DNA of 64,000 bases from Eubacterium sp. (GTDB lineage Bacteria; Bacillota; Clostridia; Lachnospirales; Lachnospiraceae), in assembly GCA_024681515.1 (NCBI GenBank), contig JAILAR010000006.1:1-64000 (forward strand). Reading direction: 5' to 3'. Numbering within the stretch: the stretch's first letter is position 1; the number at the start of each line of letters is the position of its first letter. Shown here piece by piece: positions 1 to 5,614 of the stretch. The translations under genes were made by a program, and so were the position numbers. Below the pieces are notes generated by a model. It ran no database searches, was not told the origin of the DNA, and was given only the letters and a program-made list of their open reading frames with translations.

Positions 1-127
1 CAACCTCAAGATGAGATATCCCACTCCATAAGGAGTTAAGACCCCTTGAAGACTACAAGGTTGATAGGCACAGAGTGGAAGTGTGGTGACACATGGAGCG
101 GATGTGTACTAATAGGTCGAGGGCTTT
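1..127 (+). rRNA. 23S ribosomal RNA, 3' end (partial)
   Basis: Conserved 23S 3' sequence 'aagatgagatatcccactccata...gagttaagaccccttgaagactacaaggttgatagg...gtgtactaataggtcgagggctttt'; end approximate. Confidence 0.93.
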
Positions 128-245
128 TCCTGAGAAAAGCAAAAAGAATGATCCAGTCTGATTCGTGTCTTGTGACTGTTTGTATGAAGTTTTCAGTGAA
201 TGGTGCATTTTTTTGTGCCCGGATTCAGTGAATACAGACAGACAT

Positions 246-2215: not shown

Positions 2216-2626
2216 TTACATAATACTACTGTGCATCAGATCAGACAGCTTCCTTCCGTAGAAGAAATCGTGAACCATTTTGTCGAAGTCTTCCCACATG
2301 GGCAACGTACGGCAGGCATTTCTTCGGCTGCAATCATAGTTCGGATCTGCCAGACAGGCTACGGAGGAGAGTGTACCCTCCATCATTTCGATGATCTCTC
2401 CGACGGTTATGTCCTCCGGCATTCGGACGAGACGGTATCCGCCGCCTTTTCCGCTGGCGCCGCTTAGCAGGCCGCCGGTGACCAGTTCTTTTACGATGAT
2501 CTCCAGATATTTCTTTGAAATGCCCTGTCGCTCTGCGATGTCTTTGAGTGGGACATATCCTTCACTGTGCTGCTCCGCAAGATCGATCATGACACGGAGT
2601 GCATATCTTCCTTTCGTTGAAATCAT
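2216..2626 (-). CDS. Rrf2 family transcriptional regulator (CymR/IscR-like)
   Basis: MISTKGRYALRVMIDLAEQ...GISKKYLEIIVKELVTGGLLSGASGKGGGYRLVR; start set at MISTKGRYA. Confidence 0.93.
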   Translation of the reverse strand: MISTKGRYALRVMIDLAEQHSEGYVPLKDIAERQGISKKYLEIIVKELVTGGLLSGASGKGGGYRLVRMPEDITVGEIIEMMEGTLSSVACLADPNYDCSRRNACRTLPMWEDFDKMVHDFFYGRKLSDLMHSSIM

Positions 2627-2659
2627 GACGTTACCTCCTGTGATCAGAAACATTTCTAT

Positions 2660-2679
2660 AACCTACTCTATCATAGGGT
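2660..2679. promoter_or_regulatory. candidate Rrf2 operator upstream of rrf2
   Basis: AACCTA-N8-TAGGGT imperfect palindrome, same half-sites as 2717-2737. Confidence 0.55.
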
Positions 2680-2716
2680 GAATGGTCGATTCAAGAAAAA
2701 ATGATAAATTTTTAAA

Positions 2717-2737
2717 AACCTATTGACACAGTAGGTT
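2717..2737. promoter_or_regulatory. candidate Rrf2 operator overlapping -35 of metY-cysK leader promoter
   Basis: Perfect palindrome AACCTA-N9-TAGGTT with TTGACA inside the spacer. Confidence 0.6.
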
Positions 2738-2751
2738 AATAGTGATATTAT
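2723..2751 (+). promoter_or_regulatory. sigma70/A-type promoter
   Basis: TTGACA - 17 nt - TATTAT. Confidence 0.8.
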
Positions 2752-2848
2752 GACGATGGTTCCGATAAATACCTACGAACCCGATAGGGTTTTAGGAGAA
2801 CGGAGCACATCTAAGTGCGAAGTATGGAATAATCAGGAGGCAGGAACG

Positions 2849-2968
2849 ATGCGTAACGACAGATACCATTTTGAAAATGCCAATTGGATAATGTGTTGTC
2901 GAATGCGAAACTCCCGGGCATATCATGTGGCTGGGGTGGGTACATGTCGATGTTGCCGCCTCGCTTAA
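2849..2968 (+). CDS. cysteine-rich leader peptide (39 aa) upstream of metY-cysK
   Basis: MRNDRYHFENANWIMCCRMRNSRAYHVAGVGTCRCCRLA; SD caggaggcagg upstream of ATG; 5 Cys codons. Confidence 0.65.
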   Translation: MRNDRYHFENANWIMCCRMRNSRAYHVAGVGTCRCCRLA

Positions 2969-3013
2969 GTATGAGGGTCCCCTGGATCCTTGTGCGATAG
3001 AAAGAGCCATTTG

Positions 3014-3049
3014 CCCGGGAGCCGGAACACAGCAACCGGGTTCTTTTTA
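3014..3049 (+). terminator. putative attenuator terminator in metY leader
   Basis: CCCGG(gagccggaacacagcaa)CCGGG followed by ttcttttta. Confidence 0.5.
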
Positions 3050-3207
3050 TGAAGGCAAGATGCAATGAACCGGATCTGATCGGAATGTATCATGAATGCA
3101 TGGCATGAGCCTCTAAATTAAGAAACATAATAACAGATTCGAAAAAAAAGAATAACAGATCAAAAACAGATCACAACAAATAATCGATATAAAAGGAGAA
3201 CAAAACA

Positions 3208-4491
3208 ATGAGCGATTACAGATTTGAGACACTTCAGTTACACGTAGGACAGGAACAGCCGGATCCGGCAACAGACGCAAGAGCAGTGCCGATCTACCAG
3301 ACGACCTCTTATGTATTCCGCAACAGCCAGCACGCAGCTGACCGCTTCGGTCTGGCGGATGCAGGCAACATCTACGGACGCCTTACCAACTCCACACAGG
3401 ATGTGCTGGAGAAGCGACTGGCAGCTCTGGAAGGCGGCTCCGCAGCACTGGCACTGGCCAGCGGCGCAGCAGCCATCACCTACACCATCGAAGCTCTGGC
3501 AGCAAACGGAGGACATATCGTTGCACAGAAGACCATTTACGGCGGAAGCTACAATCTGCTGGCACACACGCTGCCCCAGTACGGCATCGAGACCACATTT
3601 GTGGATGCTCACAACCTGGCAGAGGTTGAGGGCGCTATTAAAGATAATACCAGAGCCATCTACCTTGAGACCCTGGGTAACCCCAACAGCGACATTCCGG
3701 ACATCGATGCCATCGCAGAGATCGCTCACAAGCACGGTTTGCCGGTAGTGGTTGACAACACCTTCGGTACTCCGTACCTGATCCGTCCTTTCGAGCACGG
3801 TGCAGACATCGTGGTTCATTCCGCAACCAAGTTCATCGGCGGACACGGAACGACCCTGGGCGGTATCATCATTGAGTCCGGTAAGTTTGACTGGAGCGCA
3901 AGCGGCAAGTATCCGAATATCGCAGCTCCGAATCCCAGCTACCACGGCATATCCTTCTATGACGTCGTAGGACCGGCTGCATTTGTAACCTACATCCGCG
4001 CGATCCTGCTTCGTGATACGGGTGCAACGATCTCTCCGTTCAACGCATTCCTGTTGCTGCAGGGCGTGGAGACATTATCTCTCCGCCTGGAGCGCCACGC
4101 AGAGAACACGAAGAAGGTTGTGGACTTCCTGTCCAAGCATCCGCAGGTAGCAAAGGTGAATCATCCGTCGCTGCCGGATCATCCGGATCACGCACTGTAT
4201 GAGAAATATTTCCCGAACGGCGGAGCATCCATCTTCACCTTCGAGATCAAGGGCGGCAAGGACGCTGCATGGAAGTTCATCGACAACCTGAGCATCTTCT
4301 CTCTGCTGGCCAACGTAGCTGATGTGAAGAGTCTGGTGATCCATCCGGCATCCACGACTCATTCCCAGCTGACCGACGAGGAGCTGCTGGACCAGGGCAT
4401 CACCCAGGGAACCATCCGTCTCTCCATCGGTACGGAGCATATCGATGATATCCTGGCTGATCTGCGCAAGGGCTTTGACGCAGTACGGTAG
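3208..4491 (+). CDS. metY: O-acetylhomoserine aminocarboxypropyltransferase / sulfhydrylase
   Basis: [40 protein letters not shown] Lys context [27 protein letters not shown]. Confidence 0.94.
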
Positions 4492-4681: not shown

Positions 4682-5614
4682 ATGGCAAATATCTATAAGG
4701 GAACACTTGGACTCATCGGAAATACACCGCTGGTTGAGGTGGTGAACATTGAGAAGGAACTGGGCCTGGAGGCTACCATCCTTGTGAAGCTGGAATATTT
4801 CAATCCGGCAGGAAGCGTTAAGGATCGTATCGCAAAGGCCATGATCGAGGATGCGGAGGAAAAGGGGCTTCTGAAAGAAGGTTCCGTCATCATCGAGCCT
4901 ACATCCGGAAATACAGGCATCGGTCTGGCAGCCATTGCTGCAGCCAAGGGGTATCGGATCATTCTGACCATGCCGGAGACCATGAGCGTGGAGCGCCGTA
5001 ACATTCTGAAGGCATATGGTGCCGAGCTGGTTCTGACCGAGGGCGCAAAGGGTATGAAGGGTGCCATCGCCAAGGCAGAAGAGCTGGCAAAGGAGATCCC
5101 GGGCGGTTTCATCCCCGGACAGTTTGTGAACCCTGCAAATCCGGCGATTCATAAGGCAACTACCGGTCCGGAAATCTGGAAGGACACCGACGGAAAGGTA
5201 GATATCTTTATCGCAGGCGTGGGAACCGGCGGAACGGTTACGGGAACCGGTGAGTATCTGAAGGAGCAGAATCCTGATATCAAAGTGGTGGCTCTGGAAC
5301 CGGCAGATTCTCCGGTACTGTCCGAAGGCAGAGCCGGTGCACACAAGATCCAGGGGATCGGTGCCGGATTCGTGCCGGATGTTCTGAACACCAAGGTGTT
5401 TGACGAGGTATTCAAAGCTGCAAATGACGATGCATTCGCTACGGCAAAGCTTCTTGCAAAGAAGGAAGGTATCTCCGTAGGTATTTCCTCCGGTGCGGCA
5501 CTCTTTGGTGCGATCCAGCTGGCAAAGCGCCCGGAGAACAAGGGCAAAACCATTGTGGCCCTGCTTCCGGACAGCGGCGACCGGTATTACTCAACAGCAC
5601 TTTTTACTGAATAA
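4682..5614 (+). CDS. cysK: cysteine synthase A (O-acetylserine sulfhydrylase)
   Basis: [56 protein letters not shown]. Confidence 0.96.

Follow-up and report, generated by a model that had tools for sequence, protein, structure and literature searches.

Cysteine control in Clostridia is usually framed in terms of T-boxes and of repressors such as CymR. The cysteine-specific T-box of Clostridium perfringens reads the charging of tRNA-Cys by binding the tRNA directly, with no leader ORF, and ends transcription before cysK and transporter genes (PMC2940859). The classical attenuators of the trp, his and ilv type, including ilvB1 of Mycobacterium tuberculosis (PMC13236596), depend instead on a short ORF led by a Shine-Dalgarno (SD) sequence and carrying tandem codons for the amino acid of the pathway, together with a mutually exclusive antiterminator and intrinsic terminator ahead of a biosynthetic operon. 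A survey of 2010 stated that, before its own histidine example in bacilli, no amino-acid leader-peptide attenuator was known outside Proteobacteria and Actinobacteria (PMC2965389). For cysteine, uORFC-8-2 of the alphaproteobacterial Rhodobacterales is a predicted ribosome-mediated attenuator with two tandem Cys codons at positions 14-15, a preference for UGC and an intrinsic terminator, found before cysS only (PMC8632094). Cys-rich short ORFs also precede sulfur or cysteine genes in Actinobacteria (PMC1262725), and the polycysteine ORFs of mycobacteria are cysteine-responsive, which the account within PMC13236596 reports as translational attenuation (Canestrari 2020).

The leader considered here lies in a stretch of 64,000 nucleotides of Eubacterium sp. 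DNA (the window), where it precedes metY-cysK. It is very probably a ribosome-mediated, Cys-tRNA-responsive transcription attenuator, a function predicted from computational evidence: the ORF, its frame and Cys codons, three covarying helices, a terminator and the sulfur-gene context.

The leader and its surroundings in the window

The features of the locus are as follows.

301-2082: SulP-type permease gene, upstream of the leader
2216-2653, minus strand: divergent Rrf2-family regulator gene (PF02082)
2717-2738, plus strand: inverted repeat AACCTA-N9-TAGGTT(A), overlapping the -35 element; candidate operator of the divergent Rrf2 regulator
2723-2751, plus strand: sigma-70 promoter TTGACA-17-TATTAT with extended -10 TG (11/12 matches)
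2834-2844, plus strand: leader SD, cAGGAGGCagg, core GGAGGC at 2836-2841
2849-2968, plus strand: leader peptide ORF of 39 codons, ATG at 2849, TAA stop at 2966-2968
2894-2902, plus strand: proximal sensor TGT TGT CGA (Cys-Cys-Arg), conserved at codon level
2911-2920, plus strand: antiterminator 5' arm A, CTCCCGGGCA, inside the leader ORF (codons ..C Ser Arg Ala)
2927-2931, plus strand: inner antiterminator helix, 5' side, GTGGC (ATGGC in the family)
2945-2956, plus strand: distal Cys cluster TGT CGA TGT TGC, lineage-specific
2958-2962, plus strand: anti-SD segment GCCTC near the end of the leader ORF, able to pair with GAGGC at 2837-2841
3006-3010, plus strand: inner antiterminator helix, 3' side, GCCAT
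3012-3021, plus strand: arm B, TGCCCGGGAG, pairing with A (antiterminator) or with the terminator 3' arm
3013-3048, plus strand: intrinsic terminator, stem 3013-3018/3036-3041, T-rich tail 3041-3048
3208-4491, plus strand: metY, O-acetylhomoserine/O-acetylserine sulfhydrylase (PF01053; TIGR01326 above cut-off)
4682-5614, plus strand: cysK, cysteine synthase A (PF00291; TIGR01139 above cut-off)

Direct reading of the sequence bears out the SD-led, 39-codon, Cys-rich ORF of the original prediction: the product is MRNDRYHFENANWIMCCRMRNSRAYHVAGVGTCRCCRLA, with five Cys at residues 16, 17, 33, 35 and 36. The perfect complementarity over 10 nt between 2911-2920 and 3012-3021 is likewise present. The hairpin proposed ahead of metY stands, with a stability of -14.5 to -14.8 kcal/mol; it was originally placed 46 nt after the leader stop codon, and the distance from stop to arm B is 43 nt. 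A simple terminator scan overlooks this hairpin on account of a loop exceeding 8 nt. The helix between SD and anti-SD amounts to only 5 bp in the window. The fold of the leader beats all 100 shuffles (z -4.3), which, together with the fact that scores of genera repeat the peptide, the frame and both arms, with changes that compensate one another, shows that the leader is not a product of chance.

Transcription of the unit appears to be subject to a further input. Two CCTA-N8/9-TAGG inverted repeats lie at 2660-2740, in the interval from the divergent Rrf2 gene to the metY promoter, and are probable operators for Rrf2 autoregulation and metY control. The AACCTA-N9-TAGGTT repeat has no second copy in the genome at one mismatch or fewer, and the promoter/operator block ahead of the leaders is kept within the genus. 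Rrf2 is a probable second layer of control at the promoter; in Bacillales, CymR is such a second layer (PMC2940859). Two further elements of the region are a dispersed, hairpin-like repeat of 26 nt, GGAGCACnnCTnAGTGCGAAGTATGG, at 2800-2833 directly 5' of the leader SD and present in 8 places in the genome, and, at the edge of the window (1-133), the 3' terminal part of a 23S rRNA gene.

A leader family in Clostridia: distribution, coding and pairing

Related leaders occur at more than 150 loci in many genera of Lachnospiraceae and in other Clostridia. Translation of the core block shared by genomes of the same genus gives the peptide family M..CCRMxxSRAxxMAG, whose Cys-Cys core is invariant in 14 aligned leaders. 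In a DNA search of same-genus genomes the main matches are the promoter/operator and the Cys-Cys core region, with arm B and the terminator matched in a few genomes. A protein profile search found about 77 leader loci. Of 61 genomes from the genus 36 have a match, and the matches are spread over many genera within the family and extend to a second family within the order. The DNA pattern TGYTGYCGAATGN5CTCCCGGRCA was found in at least 120 stretches of GTDB species genomes, representing at least 118 loci that are partly the same as the profile loci; the matches listed carry the labels Lachnospiraceae, Ruminococcaceae/Oscillospiraceae, Saccharofermentans, Eubacterium, Blautia, Clostridium porci and others. 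The exact pattern is present in 7 of 391 genomes drawn from the class, so the leader is widespread and not universal, and a search of viral contigs for it returned none. One contig labelled Eggerthellaceae (Actinobacteria; L183) carries the core pattern before metY and is probably mislabelled or from a mixed bin.

The genes behind these leaders are of a consistent kind, nearly all being metY(-cysK) or cystine/methionine-type ABC transporter genes. The first gene is metY at 47 and an SBP3/NlpA-type binding protein at 16 of the profile-found loci; for the DNA-found loci among the matches listed the numbers are 49 for metY and 26 for SBP/NlpA, with ABC components or cysK in others. The two sets partly coincide, and F6(-) entries in the downstream-gene lists, which are long antisense ORFs lying over metY or other genes and read as artefacts, were left out of the counts. 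Several genomes have two or more copies of the leader, each before a different sulfur operon. One leader (L102:1599-4061) stands before hpsG, (2S)-3-sulfopropanediol dehydratase (NF048011 far above cut-off), a sulfonate-degrading enzyme, and suggests that sulfonate use is controlled by cysteine supply. A recurrent operon behind the leader encodes an NlpA lipoprotein, an iron-containing alcohol dehydrogenase (386 aa) and a 184-aa protein of unknown function (L129:3975-6634 and similar loci), and is possibly a pathway for a sulfonate or another sulfur source. In three single polypeptides (L056:1788-3116, L106:2345-4018, L107:5039-6742) SBP_bac_3 and NlpA/MetQ domains are fused, so that the binding protein of an ABC transporter is, unusually, a double one.

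Is the Cys frame the one that selection keeps open? At 114 loci analysed from DNA alone, among the matches listed, an SD, an ATG and an open path into the core are found in the Cys frame at 100, as against 0 and 8 in the other two frames, and the 36 nt 5' of the core are stop-free in the Cys frame at all 114, as against 62 and 43. This bias in frame and SD indicates that the reading frame, the SD and the Cys codons are selectively kept. The original prediction made its own survival depend on conservation of the leader ORF and its Cys codons in relatives; both are conserved, before sulfur genes. The core is mostly reached 11-15 codons after the start, and its two Cys positions hold TGT 124 times and TGC 13 times (TGT in 124 of 137 Cys codons), with a non-Cys codon 9 times. 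The distal part of the leader is variable: Cys is enriched there (11% of residues, compared with 4% before the core), CRCC is found in the clade of the window, elsewhere the ORF often ends ...CGA TGT stop, and 26 leaders end CGATGTTGA.

The core itself, TGTTGTCGAATG, is near-invariant. The Arg that follows Cys-Cys is encoded by CGA in 64 of 66 cases, yet in the downstream genes CGA is the rarest Arg codon, accounting for about 5%; where the core CGA does change, it becomes a Cys or Ser codon in 7 cases and a synonymous Arg codon in 2. The near-invariance of CGA beside the core Cys codons (2900-2902 and across the family), and its return distally as CGA TGT stop, are unexplained by the pairings found. 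As a pairing partner for TGTTGTCGAATG, CGAATG with the CATTTG just before B was tried and rejected, for it fails where CATTTG is CATATG or CATGTG.

The pairing of the arms is maintained across the family, and the covariation sought for it in homologous leaders is evident in the form of compensatory changes. Nearly all homologs have a complement of arm A, usually about 65-105 nt 3' of A and followed by a T-run. Arm A is variant at 32 loci. Twelve of these carry a 10-nt segment perfectly complementary to their own variant, and the consensus complement is absent from all 12; the pairs include CTCCCGGACA/TGTCCGGGAG, CTCCCAGGCA/TGCCTGGGAG and CTCCCGAGCA/TGCTCGGGAG. At locus L077 arms A, B and C are all altered together (AACTCGGGCA / TGCCCGAGTG / CTCGGGC). 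Such compensatory variants rule out a chance 10-nt match between A and B. In an alignment of 56 sequences 99.6% of the A:B cells are paired and 6 of the 10 pairs show compensatory change, the partners there having been picked by complementarity, a choice of which the variant-specific test (12/32) is independent. In the same alignment the inner helix is paired in 89.6% of cells with 4 of 5 pairs compensated, for instance by change from ATGGC/GCCAT to ATGAC/GTCAT, and a third helix, which joins the leader SD to the distal ORF, is paired in 71.4% of cells with all 10 pairs compensated. Most of the covariation signal is lost when the partners are slid by 1-3 columns, and permutation of partners for the SD helix lowers its score from 15.09 to 12.73 (sd 0.22, z 10.5). 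Finally, 133 of the 146 homologous loci have a hairpin with a T-run; its mean stability is -14.7 kcal/mol, compared with -6.2 for shuffled sequences. A few homologs are without a clean terminator or B arm.

The proposed switch and alternative readings

How might these elements work together? Transcription would start just 5' of the leader and a ribosome would enter the ORF, to stall, when Cys-tRNA is short, at the tandem UGU UGU. Arm A starts 14 nt after the first base of the second core Cys codon, and given the usual ribosome footprint a ribosome holding that codon in its A site would reach almost to the arm without covering it. Arm A would thus stay free for B as B is made, the antiterminator, consisting of the 10 bp of A:B and the inner AUGGC:GCCAU helix, would hold B from the terminator, and RNA polymerase would read through into metY-cysK. 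With Cys plentiful, the ribosome would pass A and reach the stop codon, which usually precedes B by about 20-40 nt, and A would be hidden or outcompeted, leaving B to pair with C and transcription to end. The SD helix crosses A:B and should therefore act as a protector that promotes termination if the ORF has not been translated or its translation is complete, and should also limit re-initiation; in trp leaders, too, a helix hides the region where translation of the leader begins. The distal Cys codons may hold a ribosome over the anti-SD segment and so block the protector helix. In all of this, what we infer is that the ribosome stalls, in which direction control runs, how the steps are timed and that cysteine is the signal.

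When the ribosome footprint is masked in an equilibrium folding model, which leaves timing out, the result lends support to readthrough when Cys runs short and to termination when translation goes on. With the ribosome at Cys-Cys the modelled probabilities are 0.71 for A:B and 0.22 for the terminator, with the ribosome over A they are 0.00 and 0.76, and with the ribosome at the stop codon, which lies well past arm A and leaves it not directly covered, 0.38 and 0.48. With no ribosome (0.56 and 0.34) the average still favours A:B, and in the window the SD helix plus terminator falls short of A:B by about 4 kcal/mol; the switch would therefore rely on timing or on the protector helix, which is weak in the window. 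The same calculation bears on the original proposal that a stall at the distal CRCC frees arm A. With the ribosome at the last distal Cys codon, A:B reaches only 0.44, against 0.44 for the terminator, and is not favoured. CRCC as main sensor was set aside, being lineage-specific and confined to the window's own clade, with other lineages often ending ...RC-stop; the conserved sensor is the proximal TGT TGT (2894-2899) beside arm A, not the distal CRCC.

The conservation of the CGA and ATG codons after Cys-Cys exceeds what attenuation needs. It is rather unlikely, but conceivable, that UGU-UGU-CGA-AUG is a dedicated pause element, in which slow CGA decoding or the MCCRM chain synchronises the A:B decision with RNA polymerase; if so, the leader would be a combined codon-sensing and arrest-peptide switch unlike classical attenuators. 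An arrest-peptide attenuator proper, where the nascent MCCRM.. or slow decoding of CGA pauses the ribosome and the signal is free cysteine or another sulfur metabolite and not simply uncharged tRNA-Cys, would also account for a core conserved beyond helix pairing and for a CGA retained despite its rarity. We hold it improbable, for, the Cys codons apart, it is codons and not residues that are constrained, as the replacements of CGA (7 by Cys or Ser, 2 by synonymous Arg) illustrate, and the remaining peptide varies freely.

Strong conservation of the core at the nucleotide level and the terminator/antiterminator pair could also point to a metabolite-binding riboswitch or T-box-like RNA with the ORF as a passenger, a reading to which we give very little weight. 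Rfam searches of 2650-3230 at permissive thresholds gave no T-box, S-box or other family and only a chance snoRNA match, the SAM (S-box) riboswitch core was not found at the leader, and in the window the T-box model (RF00230) has no match at the gathering score, with six T-box matches elsewhere in the genome; moreover, the frame, SD and Cys codons are selectively kept, and A:B plus coding explain most of the conserved nucleotides. Scarcely credible is a functional small protein (metal-binding, secreted or modified) with the hairpins as the ordinary terminator of its gene. Such a gene would indeed comprise a conserved Cys-rich peptide, its own promoter and a terminator, but the N- and C-terminal parts are unconserved, some copies stop right after the core (e.g. 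CCRMLNSRAQK), no shared maturation gene is seen downstream, and the covarying arms A and B lie on either side of the ORF boundary.

Comparison with known systems

The attenuator reading places the leader in a known category. It has every defining feature of a ribosome-mediated amino-acid attenuator that can be judged from sequence, namely (i) an SD-led, maintained frame, (ii) tandem codons for the amino acid of the operon, and (iii) a mutually exclusive terminator and antiterminator. Cysteine attenuators of this kind are known in Actinobacteria and Rhodobacterales; the family in Clostridia is apparently undescribed. The original prediction knew of no Clostridial equivalent, and none was found in Rfam, in Pfam and NCBIfam, where the leader peptide belongs to no known family, or in the literature searched for the peptide strings or a Clostridial Cys leader, a search covering a minority of subscription papers, so that an unseen description is possible.

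As proposed, a single cysteine attenuator family covers a sulfur regulon in scores of genera, many of them from gut and rumen samples, and predicts which sulfur-scavenging genes answer to cysteine: metY, cystine/methionine transporters and hpsG. Its near-invariant module allows one to ask why a rare CGA follows the sensor codons, and the covariance-supported family is on offer for Rfam and for genome annotation.

The predicted control by Cys-tRNA charge, with termination before cysK and transporter genes, resembles that of the C. perfringens T-box, but here there is an ORF and no T-box (PMC2940859). With the Cys leaders of mycobacteria (Canestrari 2020, via PMC13236596) and other Actinobacteria (PMC1262725) the Clostridial leader shares the Cys-rich short ORF before sulfur or cysteine genes, whereas those leaders are leaderless or without terminators and the Clostridial one has an SD and an intrinsic terminator. 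Predicted ribosome-mediated Cys attenuation with an intrinsic terminator is common to it and uORFC-8-2 (PMC8632094), from which it differs in its occurrence in Clostridia, in preceding metY-cysK and transporters, in preferring UGU and in having a CGA codon next. The architecture is finally that of the classical attenuators, with the difference that the amino acid is cysteine, the hosts are Clostridia, one family is common to many operons, and arm A is part of the ORF, directly following the sensor codons, with the stop codon well beyond it.
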